A DNA stretch of 64,000 bases from Epilithonimonas sp. JDS. GTDB taxonomy: Bacteria; Bacteroidota; Bacteroidia; Flavobacteriales; Weeksellaceae. Shown here one piece after another: positions 18,855 through 62,480 of this stretch. The notes below the pieces were generated by a model that worked only from the letters and a program-made list of their open reading frames with translations, had not been told where the DNA came from and made no database searches. The stretch covers positions 620,001 through 684,000 of the forward strand of contig NZ_JAJSAX010000001.1 in the NCBI RefSeq assembly GCF_021261315.1, read 5' to 3'. Made by a program: the position numbers and the translations under genes. Every line of letters starts with the position of its first letter. Positions within the stretch are counted from its first letter, which is position 1.

Positions 18855-18977
18855 GCAGCCCGACTTGAACGGAGCTCTTTTTTGTTGTTGCGATTCTGGA
18901 AAAGTTCTATTAACGACATCACGTCATTCGCAACAACAAAAAAAGCGGGAGTGGAAGGCGGATAAAGCTGCCCAAAT
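18855..18977 (+). repeat. Dispersed hairpin element, copy A
   Basis: Outer stem GCAGC (18855) with GCTGC (18967). A middle dinucleotide AC pairs with GT. The inner stem GCT-C-T6-G is extended by a further perfect run: TTTTTTGTTGTTGCGA pairs with TCGCAACAACAAAAAA (16 bp). The apical region is variable. It ends in the shared tail CCCAAAT. It fills most of the 292-bp gap between the ammonium transporter and HMG-CoA synthase. Confidence 0.85.
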
Positions 18978-19041
18978 AAAAACCCCACTTTAAGAGCGAG
19001 GTTTTCTTCATATCAAAATCAAATATGCATTACAGCATACT

Positions 19042-20385
19042 TTATGCGTGACTTTCATCGTGCTGCGAAAGGTCTAAACCGATGTTTTCGGAATCTTCTG
19101 CAACTCTTAATGGGATTATCATATCCGTAAGTTTATATAAAATCAATGAGCCTAAGAATGTGAATGCCGAAACCAAGACCAAGGCCATCATATGATGTGC
19201 AAACACTTCGAAACCGCCGTGAAGCAGACTGGCGTTCTCTCCTTGAGCCAGAATCGCTGTTAGAATCATTCCCATAATTCCGCCAACACCGTGACAAGCG
19301 AAGACGTCCAAAGTATCGTCCACCTTTTTCAGGCGTTTCCAATTGCACATCAGATTTGAAACAATCGCTGAAATAAATCCTATAAAAATAGCGTGTGGAA
19401 TCGTCACAAAACCTGCAGCAGGCGTTATAGCCACCAAACCGACAACTGCTCCGATACAAGCGCCCAAAGCTGAAACTTTTCTTCCATTGACTCTGTCAAA
19501 AAATATCCAGGATAGCATTGCAGTTCCTGACGCAATCGTTGTGGTTCCAAAAGCCATCGCAGCGGTTGCATTTGCCGCCAAAGCAGAACCTGCATTGAAA
19601 CCAAACCAGCCAAACCAAAGCATTCCAGTTCCAAGAATGACAAATGGAATATTCGAAGGTTCGTGATGTGGATTTTTCCTTTTGCCGATCATCATTGCGC
19701 CAGCCAAAGCAGCGAATCCTGCACTCATATGAACTACTGTTCCACCAGCAAAATCCTTCACTCCGAAATATTTGTTCAGTAATCCGTCCGGATGCCAAAC
19801 CATATGACAAAGCGGTGTGTAGATGATTAAACTAAATAAAACCATAAACAATAAGTAAGAAATAAACCTTACTCTTTCTGCAAAAGAACCCGTAATCAAA
19901 GCTGGCGTAATCACTGCAAATTTCATTTGAAATAATGCAAAGAGAATAAAAGGAACGGTGGAAGCCATTTTGCTGTGTGGCAAAACACCCACATTGTTAA
20001 AAAACATATATGTTGTTGGATTTCCTATTAAGCCATAGTGAATTCCATTAATGGTAATCCCGATCGATTCTCCGAAAGACAAGCTAAATCCTACAACTAC
20101 CCACAAAATACTGATCACACCCAATGCAATGAAACTTTGAAGCATTGTTGAAATCATATTTTTCTTGCCGACCATTCCGCCATAAAAAAATGAAAGTCCG
20201 GGTGTCATCAATAAAACCAAACCAGAGGAAGCTAAAATCCAGGCAACGTCGGCTCCTACTATACTGTCTTCTCCGAGAAAAGTTCCCGGTAAAGGCAAAG
20301 ACGTCTGCTCTGGCCAGAAGAGTGCAGCGACTGAAATGATACTGATAACTATAAAAGAAATGATCCAGCGTTTTTCGATTTTCAT
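19042..20385 (-). CDS. amt: Ammonium transporter
   Basis: 447 residues, inner-membrane Amt/Rh channel with about 11 helices. Family motifs are intact: STMLQSFIALG, the DFAGGTVVHMSAGFAALAGA stretch carrying the first pore histidine, FNAGSALAAN, and FACHGVGGIMGMILTA carrying the second. It takes up NH4+/NH3. No glnK-type PII gene lies next to it, unlike the usual bacterial amtB-glnK pair. The promoter at 20406-20413 is enclosed in an inverted repeat. Confidence 0.93.
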   Translation of the reverse strand: MKIEKRWIISFIVISIISVAALFWPEQTSLPLPGTFLGEDSIVGADVAWILASSGLVLLMTPGLSFFYGGMVGKKNMISTMLQSFIALGVISILWVVVGFSLSFGESIGITINGIHYGLIGNPTTYMFFNNVGVLPHSKMASTVPFILFALFQMKFAVITPALITGSFAERVRFISYLLFMVLFSLIIYTPLCHMVWHPDGLLNKYFGVKDFAGGTVVHMSAGFAALAGAMMIGKRKNPHHEPSNIPFVILGTGMLWFGWFGFNAGSALAANATAAMAFGTTTIASGTAMLSWIFFDRVNGRKVSALGACIGAVVGLVAITPAAGFVTIPHAIFIGFISAIVSNLMCNWKRLKKVDDTLDVFACHGVGGIMGMILTAILAQGENASLLHGGFEVFAHHMMALVLVSAFTFLGSLILYKLTDMIIPLRVAEDSENIGLDLSQHDESHA

Positions 20386-20398
20386 AAATTGAAATTTT

Positions 20399-20420
20399 AA
20401 CCCTGCAAATATATAGGGTT
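20399..20420 (-). promoter_or_regulatory. amt promoter within an inverted repeat
   Basis: On the minus strand TATATTTG (20406-20413) matches the TAnnTTTG -7 box 20 nt before the amt start. It is bracketed by the inverted repeat AACCCT/AGGGTT (20399-20404 and 20415-20420), which could be an operator or a hairpin that straddles the start of the transcript. Confidence 0.5.
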
Positions 20421-20559
20421 AATTTGAAAAAACATATAATTTTAATAAATCAACCGTATAATTTTTACTAATAATAAATTAATTTTCCAAAAATTATTTA
20501 GATAATAATGAGGCATTAGTTTTGCAATAGACTTTTAAGTAAACATAAAAAATAAAACT

Positions 20560-20748
20560 ATGAGATCAGACATTCCAAAACCAGACAGCGAAACCAACAA
20601 AGGTCCTATGATTGCGATTATTGTCGTAGTTGCATTGTTCCTTCTAGGTTATTTTGCTTACATGATGTTCATCCCGCAACAAGTGGAAAATATGAACAAA
20701 ACCGAAAACATACAGCCAGTAGAACAAACAGTAAAAGACTCCATATAG
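20560..20748 (+). CDS. Small single-pass membrane protein, unknown function
   Basis: 62 residues: a hydrophilic N terminus (MRSDIPKPDSETNKG), one membrane helix (about 17-40, MIAIIVVVALFLLGYFAYMM) and a polar C-terminal tail. I do not recognise a family. It is flanked by divergent amt and convergent lipA and has its own terminator. The stop codon lies in the loop of that terminator. Confidence 0.75.
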   Translation: MRSDIPKPDSETNKGPMIAIIVVVALFLLGYFAYMMFIPQQVENMNKTENIQPVEQTVKDSI

Positions 20749-20764
20749 GAGTCTTTTTTTTTAT
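20733..20764 (+). terminator. Terminator overlapping the stop codon of the small membrane protein gene
   Basis: AAAAGACTCC (20733-20742) pairs perfectly with GGAGTCTTTT (20748-20757) over a 5-nt loop and is followed by nine or more T. The TAG stop occupies 20746-20748, at the loop edge. Confidence 0.9.
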
Positions 20765-20783
20765 TTTAATTGTGTGGTAAATC

Positions 20784-21653
20784 TTAGTGAATATGCTTCT
20801 CAGCGTGATAAGAACTCCTCACCAAAGGCGAACTTTCTACGTGGCGAAAACCTAAGCTTCTTGCAAAATCTCCGTACTCATCAAACTGTTCTGGCGTGAT
20901 AAAACTCTTCACAGGAAGATGTTTTTTGGTTGGCTGAAGATATTGACCCATCGTGATCACATCTACATTGGCGTTTCTAATGTCTTCGATGGTTTGGAAA
21001 ACCTCATCTCTGGTTTCTCCCAAACCTAGCATTACGCCGGTTTTTGTTCTGTTTTGTCCAGCTTCTTTCAAATATCTTAGAACTTCAAGGCTTCTTTCGT
21101 ATTTCGCCTGAATTCTCACTTCTCTAGTTAAGCGTTTTACTGTTTCCATATTGTGAGAGATCACTTCTGGCGCCACTTCCACCATTCTGTCAAGATGTTT
21201 TGTGATGCCTTGAAAATCCGGAATTAATGTTTCCATAGTCGTTCCGGGAGAAATTCTTCTGACAGCATTTACAGTTTCGCCCCAAAGAATCGAACCCATA
21301 TCTTTTAAATCATCACGGTCAACAGAAGTTAATACGGCGTGTTTGATTTTCATTAATTTGATAGAACGCGCTACTTTTTCAGGTTCGTCCCAGTTCACAT
21401 CCAAAGGTTTTCCGGTTTTTACACCGCAAAATCCGCAGCTTCTGGTGCAGATATTTCCAAGGATCATGAATGTTGCTGTTCCTTCGCCCCAGCATTCGCC
21501 CATATTTGGGCAGCTTCCGCTTTGGCAAATGGTGTTCAGCTTATATTTATCTACCAAATGTCTCAGTTCGCGGTAATTCTTACCAGTCGGCAATTTTACG
21601 CGGATCCATTTTGGTTTTTGAATGGCTGTATCTTGTTGAATTAAATCCTCCAT
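20784..21653 (-). CDS. lipA: Lipoyl synthase
   Basis: 289 residues, radical-SAM enzyme that inserts two sulfurs into octanoyl groups on carrier domains. It has both iron-sulfur clusters: auxiliary cluster cysteines C43, C48, C54 ([12 protein letters not shown]) and SAM-cluster cysteines C69, C73, C76 (CTRSCGFC). The conserved C-terminal RSSY is at 279-282. It is followed upstream by the sigma-factor gene on the same strand (13 nt), so the two may be cotranscribed. Confidence 0.97.
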
Positions 21654-21666
21654 TTTGATCTTAAAT

Positions 21667-22224
21667 TTAAAAATCGGTTTCGTCTTCTTTTAATAATTCG
21701 GCCAAGATCTTTTTGGCGCGCATTATTCTCACTTTTGTGTTGGCTACAGAAAGATTGAGCTCTTCTGCTATTTCTTTTATGCTTTTTTCCTCGAAAAACC
21801 TAAGACGAATGATGTCCTGATTTTTAGCATCCATTGTTTCGATAATCTTGATGATCTTTTGCTGGTCTTCTTCGGAAATCAATAATTCCTCGGGAGATCT
21901 TGCAAATTCATTTTTAACATCCTGCAAATTGGCATTCGGATCTTCGTTTTCCCGGCTTTTTTTTCTCCAAAAATCGATGATCGTATTTTGCGCGATTGTC
22001 AAAATCCATGTTTTGAACTGGAAGCTGGGATCGAAGAGATCCAACTTATTCAAAACTTTTGAAAAAACCGAAACCGTGATCTCGTCTGCATCATTTTCAT
22101 CTTTCACTTTGTTCATCACAAATGAGAAGACATCCACCCAAAAAGAATTAATGAGTTGTGTCTGAGCCTTTTGATCTTTATCTCTGGCTTTTAGGATGAG
22201 TGCGAGTAACTGATCTTCTTTCAT
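21667..22224 (-). CDS. Sigma-70 family (ECF-type) RNA polymerase sigma factor
   Basis: About 185 residues from the ATG at 22224. A longer TTG-started form to 22239 would overlap the -7 box, so it is rejected. Region 2 spans residues ~20-85 with [20 protein letters not shown]. Region 4 is near the C terminus with [20 protein letters not shown] and [13 protein letters not shown]. No anti-sigma factor gene is adjacent. It is located just upstream of lipA in the same orientation. Target promoters are unknown. Confidence 0.9.
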
Positions 22225-22236
22225 TTTTTCGACGAA

Positions 22237-22244
22237 CAAAGATA
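22237..22244 (-). promoter_or_regulatory. -7 box of the sigma-factor gene
   Basis: TATCTTTG on the minus strand, 12 nt before the ATG at 22224, matches TAnnTTTG. This decides the start codon and implies a leader of only a few nucleotides. Confidence 0.6.
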
Positions 22245-22463
22245 GGTATAATAATTAAAAAAAATCTAAATGGTAAGATTGAGAAATTCTATAATCCAAG
22301 GACATTTAGATTTAATTTAAATAACATTTATCAAGATTAAATTGTCTTTAAAATCAGTAATTTTACAGGCTTGATTTTTGTAATAAAAAGTCAAAGTAAT
22401 GAACTAATATTCAGAAAATTAAAAATAAAATTCAGATAAAAACTATCTGACAATAAGATTAAT

Positions 22464-23240
22464 ATGAACAAACAAATCAAATTTTATAAATATCAGGGAA
22501 CAGGAAATGATTTTGTAATGATCGACAACCGCGATCTTGAATTCCCAAAAAGCACCGAATTGATTGAAAAACTTTGCGACAGACGTTTCGGAATTGGTGG
22601 AGACGGATTGATTCTTCTGGAAAATGATGAAAAATCTGATTTCAAAATGGTGTACTACAACTCCGACGGAAACGAAAGTACAATGTGTGGAAACGGCGGA
22701 CGCTGCATCGTGGCTTTTGCTCATTTCTTAGATATTTTCGAAGACAAAACGACGTTTGATGCCGTCGACGGACTACACAAAGCGGAGATCAAAAACGGTA
22801 TCGTAAAATTGAAAATGATCGATGTGAAAAACATTAGCACAGACGGAAATGATTTTGTTTTGAATACTGGCTCGCCACATTATGTGAAATACGTGAAAAT
22901 GTTAAATAATTATAATGTTTTCAAAAATGGTAACGAAATCCGAAATTCTGAAACTTATAAGAAAGAAGGGATCAATGTCAACTTTGTAGAAACTGTTTCT
23001 GACAAGGAATTGTTTGTAAGAACCTACGAACGCGGTGTGGAAGATGAGACCTACAGTTGCGGAACCGGCGTGACGGCTGCGGCTTTAACTTTTATGGATA
23101 AAAACAATCAAACTTCTGTTGCAGTCAAGGTTTTGGGTGGACAGCTGAAAGTTTATGCTGAGAAAAATGGCGAAGGCTTCAGTGATATTTGGTTGGAAGG
23201 GCCAGCAAATCAAGTTTTTAAAGGAGATATTGCATTATAA
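22464..23240 (+). CDS. dapF: Diaminopimelate epimerase
   Basis: 258 residues, converts LL- to meso-diaminopimelate for peptidoglycan and lysine synthesis. The paired catalytic cysteines are C75 (TMCGNGGRC) and C199 (YSCGTGVTA). The start FYKYQGTGNDFVMIDNRD is the standard N terminus of DapF. It has a cytosolic two-lobe layout of normal length. It is followed after 65 nt by mltG, another peptidoglycan gene. Confidence 0.97.
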   Translation: MNKQIKFYKYQGTGNDFVMIDNRDLEFPKSTELIEKLCDRRFGIGGDGLILLENDEKSDFKMVYYNSDGNESTMCGNGGRCIVAFAHFLDIFEDKTTFDAVDGLHKAEIKNGIVKLKMIDVKNISTDGNDFVLNTGSPHYVKYVKMLNNYNVFKNGNEIRNSETYKKEGINVNFVETVSDKELFVRTYERGVEDETYSCGTGVTAAALTFMDKNNQTSVAVKVLGGQLKVYAEKNGEGFSDIWLEGPANQVFKGDIAL

Positions 23241-23305
23241 TTAAAGATTTAATAATTGAAAAATTAAAAAATTTAAAATTCCAGATCTCTTTTACAAATT
23301 AAACT

Positions 23306-24331
23306 ATGAAAAAAATAATTCTTATAATATCTGTTGTCGTTATCATAATCCTGGGATTTTTCGGGATTAGATTTTACAATAAATATGTCGGAAACAATGT
23401 GGAAAAAGACGGTTTTGTCTTGATTCCTCACAATGCGAAACCTCAACAAATCTTCGATTCTATCTCGCCTTATATTAAAAATAAAAATTATTTTAGAAGT
23501 ATTGCTGAGGACAAAAATCTAAGTGGAAACTTCAAACCAGGCCGCTACGAACTGAAATCCGGAATGAATAACCGGGAAATCGTGAATATGATCCTAGCCG
23601 GAAATCAAACTCCGAATTCTTTCAGAATTAAAGACTTCGACGACGTTTATCAAATGATCGGACGAGTTTCTAAAAAGACGGAAATCGATTCCACGAAATT
23701 TGCGAATCAATTGAATGAAATCGCCATCAGCAAAGGTTACAAAAACGCCGAAGATTTAAAAAAATATTTCTTCAACAATACGTATGATTTCTTCTGGACT
23801 GTAACGCCGAAAGAGTTTTTCAACAAATTCGAATCAGATTATAAAGATTTCTGGACGACTGAAAGAATTGCAAAAGAAAAACAATCCGGACTCTCGAGAG
23901 ATCAGATTTATGCTTTAGCTTCCATCGTTTACAAAGAATCAGGTGGAAAACCGGATGAGCAGAAAACCATCGCCGGCCTATATCTGAATCGATATAAAAA
24001 AGGCATGAAACTGCAAAGTGACCCAACGGTAATCTACGCTGTAAAGCAGGCCAGCAATTTTACGCAGCAGATCAAAAGAGTTTACTATAAGCATCTGAAA
24101 GCACCTTCGCCATACAATACCTATGCAAACAAAGGCATTCCGCCGGGACCGATTTGTATTGTCGACAAAAATTCTCTGAACGCCGTGTTGGATGCAGAAA
24201 AGAACAATTACATTTTTATGTGTGCCGATCCTGCGCGATTTGGCTATCATAAATTCACGGATAATGCAGAAGAACACGCGATCAATGCGAAAGCTTACCA
24301 GGATTGGCTGAATAAAAAAGATATAAAATAA
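23306..24331 (+). CDS. mltG: Endolytic murein transglycosylase MltG
   Basis: 341 residues: one N-terminal membrane anchor (about 3-24), a LysM-like/YceG domain and the catalytic region ALASIVYKESGGKPDEQ, with E211 as the probable catalytic glutamate, followed by TIAGLYLNRYKKGMKLQSDP and the conserved PSPYNTYANKGIPPGPI. It cuts nascent glycan strands and limits their length. The motif has YKES where many homologues have EKET. It follows dapF and precedes the TonB receptor by 27 nt. Confidence 0.95.
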   Translation: MKKIILIISVVVIIILGFFGIRFYNKYVGNNVEKDGFVLIPHNAKPQQIFDSISPYIKNKNYFRSIAEDKNLSGNFKPGRYELKSGMNNREIVNMILAGNQTPNSFRIKDFDDVYQMIGRVSKKTEIDSTKFANQLNEIAISKGYKNAEDLKKYFFNNTYDFFWTVTPKEFFNKFESDYKDFWTTERIAKEKQSGLSRDQIYALASIVYKESGGKPDEQKTIAGLYLNRYKKGMKLQSDPTVIYAVKQASNFTQQIKRVYYKHLKAPSPYNTYANKGIPPGPICIVDKNSLNAVLDAEKNNYIFMCADPARFGYHKFTDNAEEHAINAKAYQDWLNKKDIK

Positions 24332-24358
24332 GGAGCAACGGCTCATAAATAATAAAGA

Positions 24359-26938
24359 ATGAAAAGAACGGAAATTGTAAGTGTATTTCAAAAGAGAGCT
24401 TTTGGCCTTGCCCTTACCATAGGAGCAGCAAGCTTTGTAATGGCTCAGCAGAAAGTGAATGTTTCTGGTAATGTGAAAGATGCAAATGGCGCAGTTGGCT
24501 ATTCATCTATCACATTCAAAAACAGCCAAAATGCACAACTAAGTGATGCAGTTTTAGCAGATGCAGATGGAAATTACAAACTGGAATTAGCACCAGGAAG
24601 CTATGAAGTCGCAATTGAAGCGGTGGATTATAAAAAGTTCACACAAACCATCCAAGTTGAAAAACCCGGACCTATCGCACCATTTGTGATTGTTTCTTCG
24701 GGCAAAGCCAACCTAAACAACACAACGGATATCCAAGGTGTAACAATTACAGCAGCTTCCACAAAGCCTTACAAAGTGGAGCTGGATAAGAAAACTTATG
24801 ATCCTTCTCAGGATTTAGTGAGCAAAGGTGGTAGTCTTCAGGATGTTTTGCAAAACGTGCCATCTGTCTCCGTAGATACAGACGGAACTGTTTCTATGCG
24901 TGGTAGTTCTAATGTCAGATTTCTGATCAACGGAAAACCTTCTGCCCTTCTTGGAATCGATGATGGAGCCAATGCCTTACAAAGTATTCCTGCAGACCAA
25001 ATTGAAAAAATTGAGGTGATTACCAATCCATCCTCAAAATTTGAAGCGAGTGGAACGGCTGGTATTCTTAATATCATTTTGAAGAAAAGTAAAAAGACAG
25101 GATTCAATGGAAGTGTTATTGGAACTTTAGGCTATCTTCCTCAGACCAATCTCAATACAAGTCTTAGCTGGAGAAAAGGTAATTTCTCTTGGTTTCTGAA
25201 TGGCGGTGGTGGTTACAAAGAATCTAAAAACACCAACCGAAATGATAATTTTTACAGTAATGTAACGAAGACAGGGTCAGAAACAGAATCCCGTCAGAAT
25301 TCTGTGACAAACAGTGCTAATAATAATTACAATGCAACGGCGGGAATTGTCTATGATATTAATGAAAAAACATCTGTCAACGCATCAGGAACAGTACGAA
25401 CCTTCGATAGTGAAAGTGATGGCCGTATCGACTACAACTACAAGTACTATAATGCTGCTGACTCTTACACACTTAGAAAGAATCTTGGCACCAATAACAA
25501 TCTGGCATTTCAAGGGGATTTTGGACTGGATCACAAATTTGATGATAAAGGTCAAAATCTTTCATTGTCATTAAGTCTTCAGAGCAACAAATCCGGGAAT
25601 GACACAAACATTGAGGAATTTGACAATTACAGCGAGACTGCCTCTCTCCGAAATGTGATAAGTCAAAATACCAGAAACAAAAATATCGTAGCAAAAGCCG
25701 ATTACGAATTACCGATCGGTGAGATTTCCAAACTGGAAGCCGGCTACCGTCTGGATTCGAATAATAATACCTATGATAACAATGTGCTCCAAAGTACATC
25801 ATCAACTCCGGGATTACAGTATTTGGGTCTTTATACCTATGATGCAAAATATAAGGAATTGTTCAACGCTTTTTATGTGCAGTTCAAAAGTAAAATCGGA
25901 AAGATTGGCTATCAGGTAGGTCTTCGTGAAGAACTTTCTAACGTTACAACTGACTATCGCAATCTGGAAGGAAGCAATACGTTGCCAAATAAAAAGAAAA
26001 ATTATAATAATCTGTTCCCTAGTGTCTTTCTGAGTTATGAATTTGCAAAGGATAATCAGTTACTTTTAAATTATACCAGAAGGATAGACAGGCCGAGAGG
26101 CTTTTTCCTGATTCCTAATCCTAGTTATAATGACAATCAAAACATTTTTGACGGTAATATAGATCTGAACCCTTCTTACGTAGACTCATTTGAACTGGGC
26201 TATAGCATCTCAAAGAAAAAATTCACCATCAATCCTACGCTTTATTACAAACGAGAAACCGATGATACAAAAATGCTGGTTTACAATAAAGCAATAACAT
26301 ACACGTTTCTGGATGAAACCGGAGCAGAACAGGAAGGAAAAAGAATCGAGTTCCACACAAAGCCCATTAATCTGGGAACAGAAGAAACTTATGGATTGGA
26401 TCTCAACTTTAACTGGGATGCTACAAGCTGGCTAAAATTTATGGGAAATGTAGATCTCTTTGGCTACAATATAAAGGGTAGTACTCTATACCAGACCTTA
26501 AATGAAGATCTTGAGGAGATTACTTCAACTGCTAATTTTAACGGAAGTGGAATCTCTACCAGAAGCAGACTGACAGCTTCTTTTAAATTGGATAAAACAC
26601 TCAATTTCCAGGTACAGGGATTCTACAGAGGTGGTACAAAAACAGAATACCAGGACAGAAAAGATATGTACGCCATCAACTTCGGAGCATCCAAAACAAT
26701 TTTAAAAGGCAACGGAACTTTGGCATTCAACATTCAGGACGTCTTCAACACAAGAGCAATGCAGTCAACTACTTACACGGCAAACAGCACTAGGGAATCT
26801 TATATGCAATGGCAGCCAAGACAGTTTACTATTTCGCTGACTTATAGATTCAAACAAGGAGAAAAAGTAGAACAGCCTAAACGTAAAAAAGACATCAATT
26901 CCAATGCAAGTGGTGATGATCAGCAAGCTCCAATGTAA
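24359..26938 (+). CDS. TonB-dependent outer membrane receptor (OMP_b-brl_3 type)
   Basis: 859 residues. A signal region ends at FVMAQQ, followed by a CarboxypepD_reg-like beta-sandwich (about 33-112). The plug (about 145-245) has DVLQNVPSVSVDTDGTVSMRG, FLINGKPSALLG, and IEKIEVITNPSSKFEASG with NIILKK. The rest is a 22-strand-type barrel ending in QPRQFTISLTYRFKQGEK. It is not paired with a SusD gene, so it is not a standard glycan-uptake pair. The ligand (siderophore, peptide or cofactor) cannot be told. A strong terminator follows. Confidence 0.93.
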   Translation: MKRTEIVSVFQKRAFGLALTIGAASFVMAQQKVNVSGNVKDANGAVGYSSITFKNSQNAQLSDAVLADADGNYKLELAPGSYEVAIEAVDYKKFTQTIQVEKPGPIAPFVIVSSGKANLNNTTDIQGVTITAASTKPYKVELDKKTYDPSQDLVSKGGSLQDVLQNVPSVSVDTDGTVSMRGSSNVRFLINGKPSALLGIDDGANALQSIPADQIEKIEVITNPSSKFEASGTAGILNIILKKSKKTGFNGSVIGTLGYLPQTNLNTSLSWRKGNFSWFLNGGGGYKESKNTNRNDNFYSNVTKTGSETESRQNSVTNSANNNYNATAGIVYDINEKTSVNASGTVRTFDSESDGRIDYNYKYYNAADSYTLRKNLGTNNNLAFQGDFGLDHKFDDKGQNLSLSLSLQSNKSGNDTNIEEFDNYSETASLRNVISQNTRNKNIVAKADYELPIGEISKLEAGYRLDSNNNTYDNNVLQSTSSTPGLQYLGLYTYDAKYKELFNAFYVQFKSKIGKIGYQVGLREELSNVTTDYRNLEGSNTLPNKKKNYNNLFPSVFLSYEFAKDNQLLLNYTRRIDRPRGFFLIPNPSYNDNQNIFDGNIDLNPSYVDSFELGYSISKKKFTINPTLYYKRETDDTKMLVYNKAITYTFLDETGAEQEGKRIEFHTKPINLGTEETYGLDLNFNWDATSWLKFMGNVDLFGYNIKGSTLYQTLNEDLEEITSTANFNGSGISTRSRLTASFKLDKTLNFQVQGFYRGGTKTEYQDRKDMYAINFGASKTILKGNGTLAFNIQDVFNTRAMQSTTYTANSTRESYMQWQPRQFTISLTYRFKQGEKVEQPKRKKDINSNASGDDQQAPM

Positions 26939-36233: not shown

Positions 36234-36444
36234 TGTTGAAATTATTTTTAGCATTGCAAATTAAAGAAATTTGAGCAAATAATGAGGAATTTTTGTTTAA
36301 AAAGAACTTATTAAATTTTAATTTGATTAGCATTAATGAGACTTTACGAATATGTGAATCTTTATTTTATGCAATCGATTGCACAGGTTGTTATTTTTTT
36401 TAATTTTACCAGCAAGCAGTTGCTCTTTATTATTGTGGGTAGCA

Positions 36445-36520
36445 CTTCGACTCCGCTCAGTGTGACAATTCGAAAACCAATTATTTTATTTATACTTTGT
36501 CAGTCTGAGCGGAGTCGAAG
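36445..36520. repeat. 23-bp inverted pair of the CTTCGACTCCGCTCA family
   Basis: A 23-bp word at 36445-36467 (CTTCGACTCCGCTCAGTG...) recurs inverted at 36498-36520 with 21 of 23 positions matching, spaced by 30 bp. The same word is found singly at 50080-50102, and diverged copies lie at 41113-41138 and inside copy D at 40940-40963. With repeat copy C it fills most of the 480-bp gap between fabV and the GH28 gene, which shows no other feature. Confidence 0.85.
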
Positions 36521-36558
36521 ACTTTAATCTAAAATAAAATTGAAACAACGAATCTAAC

Positions 36559-36646
36559 GCAACCCGACTTGAATGGAGCTCATTTTTTGTGGCGGGAAAA
36601 GCGAAGGCAAAAATAGCGGGAATGGAAGGCGGAAAAGTTGCCCAAA
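36559..36646 (+). repeat. Dispersed hairpin element, copy C
   Basis: Outer stem GCAAC (36559) with GTTGC (36637), compensatory to the GCAGC/GCTGC of copy A. Middle dinucleotide AT pairs with AT. Inner stem GCT-(C)-A-T6-G pairs with C-A5-T-AGC. The apical loop is about 17 nt. It ends CCCAAAT and lies 67 bp before the GH28 start. Confidence 0.85.
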
Positions 36647-38266: not shown

Positions 38267-38283
38267 CTTTTTTATTAATAGCG

Positions 38284-38401
38284 TCGGGCTTCAGCCCGAT
38301 GTCACTTTGAAAAAATAATTCAAGGCTTTAGCCAAAATTTATTACAAGTTTTGGCTAAAGCCTTTTTTATATTCCAATCTTTAAAATGGGCTGAAGCCCA
38401 T
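38284..38401. repeat. Cluster of three hairpins with GGGCTTCAGCCC/GGCTTTAGCC words
   Basis: TCGGGCTTCAGCCCGA at 38284-38299 (7-bp stem), a 16-bp perfect stem AAGGCTTTAGCCAAAA (38322-38337) with its complement at 38349-38364, and ATGGGCTGAAGCCCAT at 38386-38401. The middle hairpin has a T tail and could also terminate transcription. The cluster lies between convergent GH28 and topB. Confidence 0.85.
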
Positions 38402-38418
38402 TCCTATTGATGAAATTT

Positions 38419-40855: not shown

Positions 40856-40987
40856 GCGCCCCGACTTGAGTGGAAATCCTTTTTTGCTCTGACTTCGGTT
40901 GTAATTAGAGGGAAATCTTCTGCAAAAAAGATTGGGAACCCTTCGACAGGCTCAGGATAAACTCCAGGCGGATAAAGGCGCCCAAAT
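40856..40987 (+). repeat. Dispersed hairpin element, copy D, with nested insertion
   Basis: Outer stem GCGCC (40856) with GGCGC (40977); middle GT pairs with AC. Inner stem AAT-C-C-T6-G pairs with C-A6-G-ATT. The 3' strand is interrupted after GGGAAC by about 25 bp that include CTTCGACAGGCTCAG, a word of the other dispersed family, before AGGCGGATAAA resumes. Confidence 0.8.
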
Positions 40988-54779: not shown

Positions 54780-54865
54780 TGGCAGCTATTTCCGCCCTCC
54801 GTTCCCAATCTTTTTGCCTGCGCTTTTCCAGCCACAAAAAAGGATTTCCACTCAGGTCGGGCTGC
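54780..54865 (-). repeat. Dispersed hairpin element, copy F (minus strand)
   Basis: Read on the minus strand: outer GCAGC (54861-54865) with GCTGC (54782-54786), middle GT with AC, inner AAT-C-C-T6-G with C-A5-G-ATT. The usual CCCAAAT tail is missing (CATAAT instead). It lies in the divergent gap between DUF5522 and the 54948 gene. Confidence 0.85.
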
Positions 54866-55383: not shown

Positions 55384-55391
55384 TAAATTTG
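55384..55391 (+). promoter_or_regulatory. -7 box of the potassium transporter gene
   Basis: TAAATTTG (TAnnTTTG) lies 29 nt before the ATG at 55421, a suitable distance for a short leader. Confidence 0.5.
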
Positions 55392-55420
55392 CAAAATTAT
55401 TTTTCAATAATTCTTACATT

Positions 55421-57400
55421 ATGTCGCAAGATAGCAGTGGTCATTTTGACCTCAAAAAACTTTCCGCAGTTGGGATTTTAGTTTCATTAGGAATTGTTTT
55501 CGGAGACATCGGAACCTCGCCGTTGTACGTGATGAAGGCCATCATCAACGCCGGAAAATCCGGAGGCATCATCTCGGAAGAATACATCGAAGGTGCACTC
55601 TCGTGTATCATCTGGACACTGACTTTACAGACGACAATCAAATACGTTATCATCGCTCTAAAGGCCGATAACAAAGGCGAAGGCGGAATCTTATCGCTCT
55701 ACTCTCTCGTCAAAAGATTTAAGAAAAAATGGCTGTACGGAATTGCGATAATCGGTGCAGCAACTTTGGTTGCGGACAGTATTATTACACCATCTATGAC
55801 TGTAATTTCAGCGATAGAAGGTCTTGAATTGGTAATGCACAAACCGCCTGTTGTTCCGATAACCTTATTTATTCTAATCGTTATTTTCGTCGTTCAGCAG
55901 TTTGGAACAAGTTTTATCGGAAAATTCTTTGGACCTGTAATGGTGCTTTGGTTTCTGGTCTTAGGCGGTTTTGGTTTAGTCCAATTGATAGAACATCCAA
56001 CAGTTTTGAAAGCTTTCAATCCTTATTACGGCATCAAATTAATTTATAATTCGCCAAGTGCCATCGTCATTTTAGGCGCTGTTTTCCTTTGTACAACGGG
56101 AGCGGAAGCTTTGTATTCCGACCTTGGACATTGCGGTATCAAAAATATCCAGGCGAGTTGGATTTTCGTAAAAGCGATGTTGATTCTTAACTATCTTGGC
56201 CAAGGTGCTTGGTTATTAAGCAATTACCACGAAGTTTTTGCAGGCAAGAATCCATTTTTTGGAATTATGCCGGAATGGTTTATTATTCCGGGAGTTGTTC
56301 TCGCGACTGCAGCAGCTATTATTGCCAGTCAGGCCGTTATCACAGGTGCTTTCACAATGTTTTCGGAAGCAATGTCGCTCAACTTCTGGCCAAATCAGGA
56401 AATTGAATATCCTTCTGGAATCAAAGGTCAAATGTACATCCCGAAAATCAACTGGGGACTTTTATTGCTTTGTTTCATCGTCGTTATATACTTCAAAGAA
56501 TCCAGTAAAATGGAAGCTGCTTATGGACTTTCCATCACGGTCACGATGTTGATGACAACCATTCTCTTGATTTTCTGGTTTCTCAAAACAAGAACCAATA
56601 AAATTTGGATTGCAATTTTTGCCTTGATTTACATTGTCATCGAAGGTGGATTTTTCAGTGCCAATATCATCAAATTCTTTGACGGCGGCTGGATGTCTGT
56701 TCTTCTTGCAGGATTCATCGGAATTTGTATGTACGCCTGGTACAACGGAAGAATCATCAAAACCACTTTCATCAAATTTGTGAAACTTGAGAAATATATC
56801 TCTACGATAAAAGATATGAAGCTGGATGAAACGATTCCAAAATACGCGACCAATCTGGCCTTTATCAGCCGTGCAAAAAGAGACGACGAAGTGGAATCAA
56901 AAATCATCTACTCCATCATCAGAGCGCAGCCGAAAAGAGCAGACCATTATTTCATTCTAAACATCGTCAACCAGGAAGACCCATACAGTTTCAAATATAA
57001 TGTGGAGGAAATTCTACCTGGAACAATTTATAAGATCAGCTTCTTACTCGGTTTCAAAAGAGACAGAAGGATCAACGACTACTTCCAGCAAGTTTTGGCG
57101 GAAATGATGGAGGAAGGAACGATTCCATCCAGAAGTTCGCATCCGTCACTCAGAACGCATAACATTCCACCGGATCTGAAATTTGTCATCATCGATAATG
57201 TTTACATCAACGACTTCTTATTGACGATCCGCGATAAAATTATTCTTAACATTTATAATTTTGTGAAGAAACTTGGAAGCAACGATTTCACGGCTTATGG
57301 TGTTGCCAGTCACAATGTGGTTGTAGAATCTGCGCCACTACTAGACCAGAAGATCAAAACAGAGAAGATAGAAAGAGTCGAAGGCAAGCATTTTGATTAA
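55421..57400 (+). CDS. kup: KUP/HAK/KT potassium transporter
   Basis: 659 residues: 12 membrane helices and a C-terminal cytoplasmic domain (about 470-659). The signature GIVFGDIGTSPLYVMKAI is in helix 1. It also has NKGEGGILSLYSLV, TTGAEALYSDLGHCG and IIASQAVITGAFTMFSEA. It imports K+ with H+. It is followed by the fur gene after 28 nt, but fur has its own -7 box. Confidence 0.94.
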   Translation: MSQDSSGHFDLKKLSAVGILVSLGIVFGDIGTSPLYVMKAIINAGKSGGIISEEYIEGALSCIIWTLTLQTTIKYVIIALKADNKGEGGILSLYSLVKRFKKKWLYGIAIIGAATLVADSIITPSMTVISAIEGLELVMHKPPVVPITLFILIVIFVVQQFGTSFIGKFFGPVMVLWFLVLGGFGLVQLIEHPTVLKAFNPYYGIKLIYNSPSAIVILGAVFLCTTGAEALYSDLGHCGIKNIQASWIFVKAMLILNYLGQGAWLLSNYHEVFAGKNPFFGIMPEWFIIPGVVLATAAAIIASQAVITGAFTMFSEAMSLNFWPNQEIEYPSGIKGQMYIPKINWGLLLLCFIVVIYFKESSKMEAAYGLSITVTMLMTTILLIFWFLKTRTNKIWIAIFALIYIVIEGGFFSANIIKFFDGGWMSVLLAGFIGICMYAWYNGRIIKTTFIKFVKLEKYISTIKDMKLDETIPKYATNLAFISRAKRDDEVESKIIYSIIRAQPKRADHYFILNIVNQEDPYSFKYNVEEILPGTIYKISFLLGFKRDRRINDYFQQVLAEMMEEGTIPSRSSHPSLRTHNIPPDLKFVIIDNVYINDFLLTIRDKIILNIYNFVKKLGSNDFTAYGVASHNVVVESAPLLDQKIKTEKIERVEGKHFD

Positions 57401-57416
57401 TCACAAAAAAAATCGC

Positions 57417-57424
57417 TAATTTTG
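57417..57424 (+). promoter_or_regulatory. -7 box of the fur gene
   Basis: TAATTTTG ends 4 nt before the ATG at 57429. As with the Nudix gene this predicts a leaderless or almost leaderless mRNA. Confidence 0.5.
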
Positions 57425-57428
57425 TAAG

Positions 57429-57908
57429 ATGGATACGAAACAAAAAGAGTTGAATATCGCAACTATTAAAGATGTTCTAAGACAATACCTTATGGATAAA
57501 GGCTTCCGCAACACACCGGAGCGTTATACCATTTTGGAAGAGATCTATGGTATGGAACATCACTTCAACGTGGACGATCTTTATCTTCTGATGATGCAGA
57601 AAAAATACCACGTGAGCAAAGCCACGATCTACAATACGATCGAGATCTTTCTGGATGCAGGATTGATCAGAAAGCACCAGTTCGGAGAGAAAACATTGAG
57701 TACATCGTCGTACGAAAAATCATATTTCGATAAGCAGCACGATCATTTGGTGATCTACAAAGAAGATTCTGACAAAGAAATTGCAGAGATCATAGAATTT
57801 TGCGACCCGAGAATCCAAGGCATCAAAGACTCGATTGAAAAAGCATTTGGTGTAAGTATTGATACGCACTCGTTGTACTTCTACGGACACAAGAAGTCTG
57901 AAAATTAA
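57429..57908 (+). CDS. Fur-family metalloregulator
   Basis: 159 residues. Winged-helix DNA-binding domain (about 15-95) with MDKGFRNTPERYTILEEI and HVSKATIYNTIEIFLDAGL. The dimerisation domain has QHDHLVIYKED and ends SLYFYGHKK. The CxxC pair that holds a structural zinc in many Fur proteins is absent: IYKED stands in its place, and only one Cys (EFCDPR) remains. It probably represses iron or other metal genes. Its stop overlaps the start of the OstA-like gene (TAATGA). Confidence 0.88.
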   Translation: MDTKQKELNIATIKDVLRQYLMDKGFRNTPERYTILEEIYGMEHHFNVDDLYLLMMQKKYHVSKATIYNTIEIFLDAGLIRKHQFGEKTLSTSSYEKSYFDKQHDHLVIYKEDSDKEIAEIIEFCDPRIQGIKDSIEKAFGVSIDTHSLYFYGHKKSEN

Positions 57909-59653
57909 TGAAGAAAACCTTTCTTTTAATATTACTTTTAGTTGTTGTAAGAATCTTTTCGCAAGTGGCGCCAACCCAAAACACAGGTCTGGTAAAAGAT
58001 CCTTTTTTCAATAATCCAAATCCAAATACAGAAGCTTCAAAGAAAGTTCAGCACAGACACTCCGACAGTTTCGGTGTAAAAGCTGACAGATATGAAGGAA
58101 ATCCTGTTTTCTCAGGAAATGTTGTTTTCGAACATCAAGGTTCAGTTTTAACTGCTGATGAAGTAGTTTTTTATCAGAAAGAAAACTTCTTAAAAGCCAT
58201 CGGAAACGTCGTCCTAACTACAGCCGACGGAAACCGAATTACAGCCGAAGAAATGGAATACGATGGCAATACAGAACGTGGAATCGCAAGAAGAAACGTT
58301 GTCCTTACCGACCCGAAACAGACCATCAAAACAGAAACACTTTACTACGATAAGATTCCAAATACGGCCTACTTCAACACAGGCGGAACGATTTACAGTA
58401 ACGATGGAAGTGTGATGTACACAAAGTCTGCGACTTATTACCTCAACACCAAGATGATTGATTTCATCGGTCGTTCTAACATCGAAACTGACAAGTACAC
58501 GATCGTCAGTGATAATATCAAACAAAACCAAAATACGGGCGCTTCAGATTTTTTTGGACCAACCACCATTCGGGATAAAGGCAATCCAAGGAATTACGTC
58601 TACACAGAATTAGGAACTTATAACTCAAAAACCGGAGAATCTTTCCTTAATAAAAACTCAAGAATTCATTACAACGATAAAGTTCTGACAGGAGACAAAC
58701 TCTACTTCAACAGAAATACAGGATTCGGAAAAGGGACAGGCAATGTTACTTTGGATGATCCAAAACAGAACCGCTACATCAAAGGTGGCTACGGCGAAAT
58801 CTATGAGAAAAAAGATTCCGCAATGGTAACCGATAAACCTTACGCTGTCAAGATTCTCAGCAAAGATTCGGTTTACATTTCGGCAGAAAAATTCCTGACT
58901 TATCAAAAATCGGATTCTATCGATAAGCTTAAGAAAAAAAGTTTTCTGAGAGCATTTAGAAAAGTGAGAATTTACAAAACCAATATGCAGGGTCGGTCAG
59001 ATTCACTTAGTTTCAATGAGACCGACGGCGAGATGCATCTGATCCGAAAACCAATTCTCTGGATGGGTGTAAAACAGGTTACCGGCGATGAGATCCGAGT
59101 TTACAGCAATACGGAAAAAGAAATTACAGATTCAATTTATGTTATAGGAAATGCATTTGCAATTAGCAAGGCAGATTCTCTTAATTTGAAAGATGAATTC
59201 AATCAGATTAAAAGCAAGAATATGATCGTTTATCTTAAAAATAATGCGATCGATATTGCAAAGGCTGTCGGTAATGCTCAGGCAATTACTTATGCGGATG
59301 ACACCAATCAAAAGACAAAAGAAGTAACAAGAATTGGTGTTGCATTATCAACTTGCGGCGAGATTGTCGCACAATTTATAGAGCGGAAATTGGAAAATGT
59401 AGATTGCAATATCGGAGCAAACACAGACACTTATCCGATGAGCAAAATATCCAAGGACGAACGTTTTTTCAAAGATTTTAATTGGAATACAAAGGATCGA
59501 CCACAGAAATGGGGCGACATTTTCCTCGATACACCAAACTATCCCGAAATCTTCTACCAATCAGACAACTCTCTTTTCGAACGAGCGGATGCTGAACGCA
59601 AGAAACTCGAAGAAAAAAACAAACCGAAGACGCCTGTTCGGGTTAAAAAATAA
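57908..59653 (+). CDS. OstA-like protein (LPS transport-type)
   Basis: 581 residues with a signal region ending near FSQVAP. The next section follows the LptA/OstA fold: repeated strands such as FSGNVVFEHQGSVLTADEVVFYQKEN and IGNVVLTTADGNRITAEEMEYDG. Members carry lipopolysaccharide across the periplasm. A lysine/proline-rich tail closes the protein. It overlaps the fur stop by 1 nt, so the two are translationally coupled. Confidence 0.88.
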   Translation: MKKTFLLILLLVVVRIFSQVAPTQNTGLVKDPFFNNPNPNTEASKKVQHRHSDSFGVKADRYEGNPVFSGNVVFEHQGSVLTADEVVFYQKENFLKAIGNVVLTTADGNRITAEEMEYDGNTERGIARRNVVLTDPKQTIKTETLYYDKIPNTAYFNTGGTIYSNDGSVMYTKSATYYLNTKMIDFIGRSNIETDKYTIVSDNIKQNQNTGASDFFGPTTIRDKGNPRNYVYTELGTYNSKTGESFLNKNSRIHYNDKVLTGDKLYFNRNTGFGKGTGNVTLDDPKQNRYIKGGYGEIYEKKDSAMVTDKPYAVKILSKDSVYISAEKFLTYQKSDSIDKLKKKSFLRAFRKVRIYKTNMQGRSDSLSFNETDGEMHLIRKPILWMGVKQVTGDEIRVYSNTEKEITDSIYVIGNAFAISKADSLNLKDEFNQIKSKNMIVYLKNNAIDIAKAVGNAQAITYADDTNQKTKEVTRIGVALSTCGEIVAQFIERKLENVDCNIGANTDTYPMSKISKDERFFKDFNWNTKDRPQKWGDIFLDTPNYPEIFYQSDNSLFERADAERKKLEEKNKPKTPVRVKK

Positions 59654-59749
59654 TTTGCTAAATTTTTGTTTCATTTTTTGCTGATTATCAAAATATTTTT
59701 AACTTTAAGAATTAACAATTCGATAAAGTAAAATATTAAAACACAAATT

Positions 59750-60703
59750 ATGAAGTATAAATTGGAACTTGCTCCGGAATTGATTCCCGTTTTAGAAGCC
59801 TACAACAGCCAACCTGCACCACCGGAAGGAATGCCTTTGCAAGAAGCTTTCCGAGGTGCGTTGAAACAAATGGCGCAGCAAGTAGGTGTCGAAAGTACAT
59901 CTGACCTGAAAGTAGAAAACAAACATTTCACAAACAGTGATGGTCTGGAAACCCAATTGCGCGTTTTCACACCTTTGAATGACAACACTCCAAAACCCTT
60001 GCTATACTGGATTCACGGCGGTGGAACTATGAGCGGATTGCCAGAGCAGGAAGACCAGACGCTTTACAATCTGGCTCTCGAACTTAACTGCGTGATTACT
60101 TCTGTCAATTACAGATTGGCTCCCGAAAATCCCTATCCAAAACCACTTAACGATTGTTATGAAGGACTTCTGCACATCGTCGCAAATTCCTCAGCATTTG
60201 GAGTTGATACTTCAAAAATCGTTGTTGGTGGCGGAAGTGCCGGCGGATTGCTTTCCACTTCTGTTGCCATCCGGGCAAGAAACGAAAACGGTCCAAAACT
60301 ACAGATGCAGTTTCTGGTCTATCCAATGGTGGATTGCAAAGACACTTCCGAAAGCAACAAAGAGATTACGAATCTTGGCGTTTGGGATTCCTGGATGAAC
60401 CATTACGGCTTCCAGTGCTACCTTACAAATGTTCCCGAAAGTGAGTATTCCAAAGCGGTTCCGAATATGGTTGAGGATTTGAGCAACCTTCCCGACACGT
60501 TTCTTGCCGTCGGCACAATGGATTGTCTTCGCGATGAAGGCATTGAGTATGCTCAGAAACTGGCAGCGTCAGGAGTGCAGGTTGAGTTGCATATCTATCC
60601 GGGAATGACGCACGTTTTCGACGCATTGGCTCCGGATTCCAAAGCTGGACAAGATTTCTGGAAAGCCAGAGTAGCCGCTTTGAATAGGGCTTTCAATAAA
60701 TAA
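59750..60703 (+). CDS. Alpha/beta hydrolase, hormone-sensitive-lipase type esterase
   Basis: 317 residues, no signal peptide. HSL-type oxyanion motif HGGG (89-92, YWIHGGGTMSG), nucleophile S163 (GGGSAGG), acid in TMDCLRDEG, and base in YPGMTHVFD. It hydrolyses short-chain esters. It is monocistronic. Confidence 0.92.
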   Translation: MKYKLELAPELIPVLEAYNSQPAPPEGMPLQEAFRGALKQMAQQVGVESTSDLKVENKHFTNSDGLETQLRVFTPLNDNTPKPLLYWIHGGGTMSGLPEQEDQTLYNLALELNCVITSVNYRLAPENPYPKPLNDCYEGLLHIVANSSAFGVDTSKIVVGGGSAGGLLSTSVAIRARNENGPKLQMQFLVYPMVDCKDTSESNKEITNLGVWDSWMNHYGFQCYLTNVPESEYSKAVPNMVEDLSNLPDTFLAVGTMDCLRDEGIEYAQKLAASGVQVELHIYPGMTHVFDALAPDSKAGQDFWKARVAALNRAFNK

Positions 60704-60733
60704 AAAATCTTTGTCAAATCGAGCTTCGTTGAA

Positions 60734-60884
60734 ATTTGGGCGCCTTTATCCGCCTTCCGTTCCCGCTATTTTTGCCTTTCCAAAAACCAGCCACAAAAAA
60801 TGAGCTCCGTTCAAACCTAACGTAGTGGTTCATCGATTCAAATAAAAAAATGTAAACTTGAGATAAGTCGGGGCGCGCTTCGCC
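60734..60884 (-). repeat. Dispersed hairpin element, copy G, interrupted by 52 bp (minus strand)
   Basis: Minus-strand outer stem GCGCC (60872-60876) with GGCGC (60740-60744), inner GCT-C-A-T6-G with C-A5-T-AGC. The 5' strand is split by an insertion of 52 bp at 60815-60866, which includes a second TTCAA/ACTTGAG-like copy. The middle dinucleotide no longer pairs (AC with AC), as expected for a damaged copy. It fills the 325-bp gap before the aminotransferase gene together with the heptad array. Confidence 0.8.
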
Positions 60885-60987
60885 GAGATTGAAATTTTCG
60901 TTGATATATCCACGAAAAAACTAAGAAATTCCCGAACTTTGTAAGAGTTTAGAAACTTGATTTATTATCAAAAATAATTGATTTTAA

Positions 60988-61022
60988 TCTAACTTCTAAA
61001 ATCTCATTTCTAACATCTACAT
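60988..61022 (+). repeat. Heptanucleotide array (TCTAnnn)5
   Basis: TCTAACT, TCTAAAA, TCTCATT, TCTAACA, TCTACAT: 35 bp, 6 nt before the ATG at 61029. Confidence 0.82.
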
Positions 61023-61028
61023 AAAAAA

Positions 61029-62207
61029 ATGAAGACCGATTTTTTCAAATACCAAGCCCAAACAACACCTTACGCCGCAGGTTTCGAAGTGGAAAAAGCA
61101 GAAGGAAGCTACATCTACGGCAAAAACGGAATCGCTTATCTGGATTTTGTAGCCGGCGTTTCTGCAAATACATTGGGACATTCACATCCGAAGGTTGTGA
61201 ACGCCATCAAAGAACAGGCGGATAAATATCTGCACGTGATGGTTTATGGTGAATATGCTCAGGAAAAACCAGTCGCGCTTTGCAAACTTTTGGCAGACGC
61301 AACGCCCGAACCTTTGGAAGTGACTTACCTCGTCAACTCAGGCGCAGAAGCTATTGACGGCAGTTTGAAACTCGCAAAACGTTATACGGGAAGAGAAGAA
61401 ATCATCGCTTTCAAAGAAGCGTATCACGGAAACACACACGGCGCACTTTCTGTTGCCGGAAATGAAGTCCATAAGAGAGAATTCCGCCCGTTGCTACCAA
61501 TGGTCAATTTCATCGAGTTCAATAATGAAAATGACCTTGACAAGATTACGGAGAAAACGGCTTGCGTGATTGTAGAAACCATTCAAGGTGCCGCAGGATT
61601 TATAATGCCGAAAGATAATTACTTCATTCAGCTGAAAAAGCGTTGTGAGGAAGTTGGTGCGTTGTTGATTCTTGATGAGATTCAGCCGGGTTTTGGACGG
61701 ACGGGAAAACTGTTTGCTTTTGAGCATTTTGGGATTGTTCCCGACATTCTTGTGATGGGAAAAGGAATGGGTGGCGGCGTTCCGGTTGGCGCTTTTATGA
61801 GTTCTAAGGAAATTATGACGAGCCTTTCACATTCGCCGAAGTTGGGACACATTACAACTTTTGGTGGAAATCCGCTGATTGCAGCTGCTTCTCTTGCAAC
61901 TTTACAAGAAGTTCTGGAAAGTGGATTGATGGAAGAAACCGACAAAAAAGAAAAACTCTTCCGTGAATTGCTCGTTCATCCGAAAATCAAAAATGTGAAT
62001 GGAAAAGGTTTGATGTTGGCCGTCAATCTTGGAAGTCCGGAATACACTTTGAAGGTCGCTTCCAGATGTATGGAAAAAGGTCTGATTGTCTTCTGGCAAC
62101 TTTACCGAAATGAATATATGAGAATTTCTCCGCCACTTACAATCTCGGAAGATGAAATCCGAAAAGGTTGTGCGATTATTCTGGAAGTTTTGAATGAAGT
62201 GGAATAA
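61029..62207 (+). CDS. Class III aminotransferase (acetylornithine-type)
   Basis: 392 residues, PLP enzyme. VNSGAEAIDGSLKLAKRYT and the pyridoxal phosphate motif LILDEIQPGFGRTG (D216) are followed by the Schiff-base lysine K245 in LVMGKGMGGG. Members transfer amino groups of ornithine, GABA or similar omega-amines. Bacteroidota usually carry it as a stand-alone gene; the substrate is not certain. Confidence 0.92.
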   Translation: MKTDFFKYQAQTTPYAAGFEVEKAEGSYIYGKNGIAYLDFVAGVSANTLGHSHPKVVNAIKEQADKYLHVMVYGEYAQEKPVALCKLLADATPEPLEVTYLVNSGAEAIDGSLKLAKRYTGREEIIAFKEAYHGNTHGALSVAGNEVHKREFRPLLPMVNFIEFNNENDLDKITEKTACVIVETIQGAAGFIMPKDNYFIQLKKRCEEVGALLILDEIQPGFGRTGKLFAFEHFGIVPDILVMGKGMGGGVPVGAFMSSKEIMTSLSHSPKLGHITTFGGNPLIAAASLATLQEVLESGLMEETDKKEKLFRELLVHPKIKNVNGKGLMLAVNLGSPEYTLKVASRCMEKGLIVFWQLYRNEYMRISPPLTISEDEIRKGCAIILEVLNEVE

Positions 62208-62372
62208 GAAATCTGCAGCAGTGAATTATCATTTATTCTCAAACCGATATGTCAGTGCTTCGCACTTTTTACTTGAATACGTTCGACTTCTACTAATATA
62301 TCAAGACTTCATCTCTTAAAGATGTGAAAGATAATTTCTATTGAAAACAAATCTTGATTGACCTACAAATCT

Positions 62373-62480
62373 GCAGCCCGACTTGAGCGGAAATCCTTTT
62401 TTGCTTGCACTCAAGTTCAACTTAATGGAAATCGTGAGCAAAAAAGATTGGGAGCGGAAGGCGGAAATAGCTGCCCAAAT
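62373..62480 (+). repeat. Dispersed hairpin element, copy H
   Basis: Outer GCAGC (62373) with GCTGC (62470), middle GC/GC, inner AAT-C-C-T6-G pairing with C-A6-G-ATT and extended by GCT(TG)CAC with GTGAGC. Tail CCCAAAT at 62474-62480. It lies in the 443-bp gap between the aminotransferase and START-like genes; the rest is AT-rich with no readable feature. Confidence 0.85.

Follow-up and report, generated by a model that had tools for sequence, protein, structure and literature searches.

Is a hairpin that recurs through a genome with its pairing intact an RNA, a mobile DNA or a binding site for a protein? The question is raised by a 64,000-nucleotide (nt) stretch of Epilithonimonas sp. JDS (contig NZ_JAJSAX010000001.1, positions 620,001 to 684,000), hereafter the window. 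An earlier note on these letters described a seven-copy dispersed hairpin element with compensatory changes in three helices, took the folded form to be under selection, and left those three options standing. Our analysis shows that the repeats belong to Flavo-1, a palindromic element dispersed through the genome, here chiefly in a form whose outer stem is longer. The arms pair almost exclusively by Watson–Crick rules, and copies of one structural type tend to end close to stop codons. With confidence somewhat short of even, we propose that the complementary strand of Flavo-1 supplies the 3′ ends of genes. The earlier observation is thus confirmed, and its interpretation finds partial support.

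The window repeats are copies of Flavo-1

All seven hairpins could be read directly from the sequence, and an eighth copy, at 13829-13893 on the minus strand, had not been listed. The earlier note knew no named family for them; covariance-model matches in the window identify the repeats as Rfam RF01705, Flavo-1, which has a gathering score of 42 bits. The copies, named below by their first coordinate, are as follows.

13829-13893, minus strand: Flavo-1 of A type, with a short perfect palindrome in place of the inner hairpin; 39.7 bits with the Rfam model, below the gathering score, and 49.8 bits with R2
18855-18977, plus strand: Flavo-1 of B type with a long apex, read directly; 30.4 bits with the Rfam model and 87.2 bits in other scoring
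36559-36646, plus strand: Flavo-1 of B type with outer stem GCAAC/GTTGC, read directly; orthologs in genomes G011, G015 and G020
40856-40987, plus strand: Flavo-1 of B type whose 3′ arm carries an inserted CCCTTCGACAGGCTCAGG-type repeat, read directly; 44.2 bits, not an Rfam score
52985-53075, plus strand: Flavo-1 of B type with a short apex, read directly; Rfam match below the cut-off
54780-54865, minus strand: Flavo-1 of B type, read directly; Rfam match below the cut-off
60734-60884, minus strand: Flavo-1 of B type, its 5′ arm carrying an insertion and its middle dinucleotides mismatched (AC/AC), read directly
62373-62480, plus strand: Flavo-1 of B type with a long apex; 44.9 bits with the Rfam model, the sole window copy above the gathering score

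The match that passes the gathering score spans 62371-62471; four of the other seven copies match Flavo-1 at E-values up to 0.021, under a looser threshold, and the 36559, 40856 and 60734 copies have no Flavo-1 match up to E = 1. Beyond the window, many copies in the genome reach the gathering score, as do copies in all 23 Epilithonimonas genomes. The search of this genome and its relatives that the earlier note had proposed gives at least 102 matches in the window genome (G000, 4.17 Mb; a lower bound, with 150 of 1,072 candidates scored) and 46-124 matches per genome across the 23 of the genus (130 candidates scored in each). An even draw across the phylum, under stricter filters and with at most 15 candidates scored per genome, found the family in 44 of 296 genomes, a distribution that is patchy even inside families. 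Sixty-one of the 65 G000 copies examined lie outside called open reading frames (ORFs).

Flavo-1 was described by Weinberg in 2010, with a table entry of ‘y n n’ for Bacteroidetes in that paper (PMC2864571), and it has been counted among the most abundant small-RNA families in a later study (PMC9029176). The literature naming the family, in a search that left most subscription-journal papers outside, gives no function for it, and within the same limit we found nothing on Flavo-1 in work on repetitive extragenic palindromic (REP) sequences and RAYT transposases with Flavobacterium, or on Bacteroidetes repeats.

The two main types, A and B, have one inner module in common. An A copy runs through AGC/GCT, CCCG/CGGG, an A·G mismatch, two pairs, a GNA/GGA loop, two further pairs, a GGA/GNA loop and AATC/GATT, in which a C is bulged, to a T/A run and an apex that varies. 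In a second form of the A type the last loop is GGC/ATA instead, and a leader of some 30 nt, loosely conserved, precedes many A hairpins. The B type, to which the seven copies of the earlier note belong, has an outer stem of 5 bp together with CCG/CGG, and its loops differ slightly. The window copies match the helices and loops of the Rfam consensus and carry this outer stem in addition, which lies outside the Rfam model. Long apexes of both types contain a loose common motif, GTTCTA..GGGAAATCGTC or GATGACAAAACG, absent from the Rfam model (read in L001-L008 and in the 62373 and 40856 copies). Reading by eye also distinguished a variant C, with an extra 3′ domain ending in TGCTCC, and a variant D, with GGGATAG..ATAGCCCGACCC outer parts, both with the inner module (loci L100, L102, L106, L107, L109, L110 and L112, L116, L118, L119, L120, L121).

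Pairing is kept almost without G·U

In the seven copies described earlier, the outer stem reads GCAGC/GCTGC in four, GCAAC/GTTGC in one and GCGCC/GGCGC in two, and it is complementary every time; the middle dinucleotide, read by eye, is complementary in six, with the AC/AC of the 60734 copy as the exception. The inner helices are as the earlier note gave them; the adjacent pair, said to switch between A-T and C-G, is T-A in the 18855 copy. The two copies with inserts, 40856 and 60734, were displaced by automatic alignment, so they were read by eye, and they were excluded from the model seeds. Among 38 distinct B rows, the outer stem is complementary except for one T·G cell.

Twenty B copies from eight genomes of the genus hold standard pairs in 438 of 439 cells, with 66 two-sided changes, 1 one-sided change and nine pairs altered on both sides. 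None of 500 shuffles of this alignment reaches its pairing, its two-sided cells or its covariation score, and one reaches its number of two-sided pairs; the number of further pair types runs the opposite way (12, compared with 14.1 in shuffles) because shuffling makes G·U. Slid structures are 44-55% paired, with zero two-sided change. Across 133 distinct copies of both types, 2,311 pairs comprise 2,283 Watson–Crick, 14 G·U, 7 A·C and 7 others, with 256 two-sided and 12 one-sided changes. These rows are the best 43 of 85 (A6), 36 of 96 (A7), 26 of 33 (A8) and 36 of 57 (A9), those left out being other-type, partial, damaged or reverse-strand matches; A-type inner pairs were counted solely where the inner helix is AAATCC or AAATCT. 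The control set, 17 RNase P RNAs from the genus (the full-length ones among 21 matches, with an RNAalifold structure), has 1,411 pairs, of which 1,124 are Watson–Crick, 280 G·U, 3 A·C and 4 others, with 52 two-sided and 74 one-sided changes. Near-absence of G·U at such two-sided variation is unlike what an RNA helix normally shows.

The same strictness holds at orthologous sites chosen by position. The outer pairs are Watson–Crick in all 143 cells of 13 orthologs at one site, in 235 of 240 cells of 22 orthologs at another and in 183 of 187 cells of 17 at a third, and, over all pairs, in 190 of 198 cells of 9 orthologs at a fourth (G011 is omitted at the 54780 site and G000 at the L082 site). 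The description of a dispersed hairpin family that keeps its pairing as its sequence changes therefore holds, including at orthologous sites across the genus. These sites support selection on the folded form, to which the replacement of whole hairpins, described below, also contributes.

Rfam types Flavo-1 as a small RNA (sRNA) gene, and conserved unpaired loops (GNA/GGA, or GGC/ATA in the second form) recur in the aligned copies, as a structured RNA read from the Rfam strand would have them. Against that reading, G·U makes up 0.6% of pairs compared with 20% in the RNase P of the genus, and the ratio of G·U to A·C is 14:7 compared with 280:3. RNA folds of two copies, four in all with both strands, were no stabler than shuffles, with z-scores from -1.1 to 0.05, about a hundred copies occur per genome, and the flanking genes lie mostly on the opposite strand (62 of 92 sides for A copies, 24 of 38 for B copies and 31 of 52 for Flavobacterium-like ones). 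The few G·U pairs, the lack of an excess of G·U over A·C like that of RNase P, and the folds all weaken the structured-RNA option of the earlier note; the pairing statistics, for what can be read from sequence, speak against a Flavo-1 RNA helix, and we regard an sRNA gene as very improbable.

Strict Watson–Crick pairing with recurrent mismatched loops would also suit a DNA site at which a nucleoid, topology or recombination factor recognizes a cruciform or a single-stranded hairpin. In one closed genome (G015 C1), 73-84 of 123 matches have the lagging-strand orientation, depending on the origin and terminus assumed. This bias is about the size of the gene-orientation bias and comes from a rough skew estimate over 20 stretches; since it is inseparable from gene orientation there, we set it aside as an explanation. 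No candidate protein emerged, and a protein-binding DNA site is in our view improbable. On contig C19 of G000, all 11 Flavo-1 matches listed are on the plus strand.

Many A-type copies lie close behind stop codons

Among A copies, the 3′ side faces the 3′ end of an opposite-strand gene in 33 of 46 cases (p = 0.0045), and B copies have their 5′ side toward the 5′ end of a gene in 15 of 19 (p = 0.019). On the 3′ side of the element, 22 of 57 facing genes have their stop codon no more than 12 nt away, compared with 2 of 28 on the 5′ side (p = 0.002; p = 0.018 for A copies alone). The A copy in the window is an example, its 3′ end being 3 nt from the stop of the ORF at 12603-13817 on the plus strand. 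An ordinary terminator stands between the 18855 copy, of B type, and an amt-like gene at 19042-20385 on the minus strand.

Three A copies with short distances were traced through all 23 genomes of the genus; 14, 22 and 19 of these have the element behind the same gene's stop, on the other strand. Their interiors vary widely while the outer pairs hold. At L082:12266, read by eye, 14 of 23 species have the element behind the gene end; of the nine others, seven show a T-run hairpin of the ordinary-terminator type at that place, and neither feature is clear in G003 and G021. At L089:4741, the element is found in 22 of 23 genomes (damaged in G007); by eye, it lies no more than 14 nt from the stop in 18, and in G017 it sits behind a repeated end. 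At L098:4821, 17 genomes have the element in full and two, G013 and G016, have it truncated or weak, and 16 of these 19 elements are within 17 nt of the stop; by eye, a terminator is present instead in G002, no element was seen in G015 and G004, and G017 is unclear.

A canonical intrinsic terminator was considered and dropped: the hairpin is present and the U-tract inconsistent. For elements more than 12 nt away, a terminator was detected before 14 of 35 on the 3′ side and 5 of 26 on the 5′ side, compared with 101 of 288 control gene ends; because the script finds a terminator at so few control ends, its silence means little. Though it could be counted against a 3′-end role, we take this comparison to be neutral, which lowers our confidence in that role slightly.

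Sites are old and interiors are exchanged

For each of the eight window sites, one or more of five relatives also have a copy in place. At the 36559 site, G020 has the inner hairpin AAATCC/GATT and G000, G011 and G015 have AGCTCA/TAGC, with the outer stem and the 3′ flank identical despite the swap; inner hairpins differ as whole units between orthologs. Other repeats occur inside the 40856 and 60734 copies and inside orthologs in G011 and G018. The 60734 copy, the sole one with failing middle pairs, has a 5′ arm as in G008 and a 3′ dinucleotide as in G015 and G004, and it looks like a recombinant of a G008-like 5′ arm with a G015- or G004-like 3′ arm. The 52985 site is common to G015 and G008, with a different copy in G019 and other spacer content in the remaining resolved genomes. 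At the 54780 site, 10 of the 22 genomes resolved are occupied (G011 with its inner hairpin replaced) and 12 are empty. Occupancy is patchy on a midpoint-rooted tree of the flanking genes, on which the unresolved G002 is drawn as empty, and occupied and empty alleles differ in length by about 190 bp with blurred edges.

Occupied and empty alleles at one site, copy numbers of 46-124 in the genus beside patchiness in the phylum, the preference for intergenic positions, strict Watson–Crick pairing and the lack of a recurrent gene among 231 neighbours would all fit a purely selfish dispersed element, similar to miniature inverted-repeat transposable elements (MITEs), REP or BOX. Such an element would be amplified by a trans-acting transposase; insertion just behind genes, or survival there, would be favoured, and the pairing would be kept because the DNA hairpin is the substrate of transposition. 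Copies nevertheless persist at the same gene ends across the genus (70-86% gene identity) with their outer pairs intact, more than neutral debris should, and no target-site duplication could be established. One A-type query had no match in plasmids or phages at E 1e-5. An integron attC-like reading, which the variable apex had suggested, was set aside. We consider a purely selfish element rather unlikely.

Nor are Y1 transposases a required partner. The earlier note had suggested looking for a RAYT/Y1 gene, and the four Y1_Tnp genes of G000 lie among other repeats: Flavo-1 stands beside none of these four loci (300 nt before and 350 nt after, by eye). Five Flavo-1-rich genomes have no Y1_Tnp match, namely G001, with 90 Flavo-1 matches, and G106, G160, G224 and G240, with at least 15 each, the most scored in the phylum draw. 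We therefore reject mobilization by RAYT/Y1, whose transposases are unlikely movers of this family. An all-against-all comparison of the 231 neighbouring ORFs, with clusters of at most three, gave no recurrent partner gene, and no transposase for Flavo-1 was identified near the Y1 loci or among the neighbouring ORFs. The Y1_Tnp genes, at L059, L060, L061 and L062, are each beside their own short palindromes, and several REP-type families seem to coexist in G000. Four window ORFs of 447 amino acids had been suspected as insertion sequences; one is instead similar to a hydrolase, one to an ammonium transporter, one to TolC-like proteins and one to response regulators, and the ammonium transporter alone exceeds its curated cut-off.

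A proposed role for the DNA palindrome as the 3′ end of genes

The reading that we prefer is that the strand of Flavo-1 opposite to Rfam's provides gene 3′ ends. A long imperfect DNA palindrome would have spread to intergenic sites, by a route that we leave unspecified, and many A copies would have settled with their 3′ end a few nt from a stop codon. The strand complementary to Rfam's, which lies in position to be the 3′ untranslated end of the gene, may act as such. Its hairpin could take the place of an ordinary terminator, either by ending transcription or by blocking 3′-to-5′ decay after Rho-dependent termination. Complementarity of the arms would be restored mainly at the DNA level, through the whole-hairpin replacement seen between orthologs and perhaps through hairpin-templated repair; restoration of this kind would explain near-perfect Watson–Crick pairing without G·U.

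Several observations weigh against a 3′-end role or the pairing argument. The gene context comes from a plain script for ORFs of at least 90 codons. B copies have their 3′ side facing a gene 3′ end in just 9 of 19 cases, not significant, and two of those nine stops are within 12 nt. Flavobacterium-like matches (26 of 33 entered the stop-distance counts and 29 of 33 the orientation counts) show the orientation in 15 of 26, not significant, and their stops alone give 7 of 15 compared with 1 of 7 (p = 0.19). Along the gene strand of 40 A copies, read by eye, no consistent T-run or U-tract follows the hairpin, and at L089:4741 another hairpin lies between stop and element in G020, G013 and G005 (by eye). 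In a transcriptome of F. psychrophilum, Flavo-1 was found to keep no fixed orientation relative to transcripts and to lie often beyond them (PMC9723704). As to pairing, six damaged B copies that were left out add 89 Watson–Crick, 10 G·U, 3 A·C and 5 other pairs, partly through misalignment, and covariance-model matches favour well-paired copies. The RNase P control is one gene at 90% identity and not a repeat family, with a structure predicted from RNA energies that accept G·U. The folds described above count here too. Our confidence stays below one half because of the missing U-tract, the weak B pattern and the F. psychrophilum statement.

A bolder statement is that Flavo-1 is not an RNA gene family at all. 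It would instead be a set of portable DNA palindromes, used from the unannotated strand as interchangeable 3′ ends of genes, genus-old behind the same stops, with interiors swapped and arms co-rewritten at the DNA level, tolerating neither G·U nor A·C. Taken as a whole, this is unlikely. If a DNA palindrome does act as a gene 3′ end, Flavo-1 small-RNA counts and the annotated strand mislead, and covariation alone is a poor proof of RNA, whereas missing G·U and the ratio of G·U to A·C would discriminate. The position-fixed sites are named places for deciding a 3′-end role.

Other repeats nearby

A REP-like array of CTACCAATAG..GCTCCTCTGGAGC units at window 14412-14567, longer in G000 than in G008, resembles in style the repeats beside Y1_Tnp genes. 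Inverted-repeat elements of about 110-140 bp (for example GAACCACATAGGCACATAGA.. and AACGCAAAGACGCAAG..) fill spacers in G015, G008, G004 and G011 opposite window positions 1189, 8302, 17399 and 33395, where the window spacers are short. Window 36440-36525 holds a palindrome of the CACTTCGACTCCGCTCAGTGTGAC kind, to which an unrelated miRNA model matches far below threshold. At 38277-38416, G000 has about 140 bp extra with two hairpins (TCGGGCTTCAGCCCGA, GGCTTTAGCC), absent there in G015 and G020.

Comparison with known systems

Intrinsic terminators consist of a GC-rich hairpin followed by a U-tract, close behind the stop codon. Flavo-1 likewise places a hairpin near the stop, and at one site terminators stand in its place in relatives; it differs in having no steady U-tract, in its conserved internal loops and in carrying a family sequence at unrelated genes. 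With MITEs it shares terminal inverted repeats, represented by the outer stem complementary in seven of seven window copies.

REP/BIME elements with RAYT are likewise palindromic, intergenic and of high copy number (PMC2817692); the Flavo-1 consensus departs from them in having no GTAG/GTGG head. The Flavo-1 hairpin is two to six times the length of a REP, given as 20-40 bp in PMC3733652, and none was seen next to the Y1 genes of G000. BOX, RUP and SPRITE of Streptococcus pneumoniae are short hairpin-forming dispersed repeats too, BOX being modular and SPRITE being termed terminator-like, with a U-rich tract that Flavo-1 does not have (PMC3049150); the likeness is one of description.

The closest relative is the Rfam family itself, with the same helix order, GGA/GNA loops and inner helix, whose model recovers the G000 copies. 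That model has no outer stem; the B copies of the window have one of 5 bp, and six of the seven fall under its cut-off. Whereas Rfam describes an sRNA, Flavo-1 here is a dispersed repeat at old sites, antisense to its neighbours more often than not.

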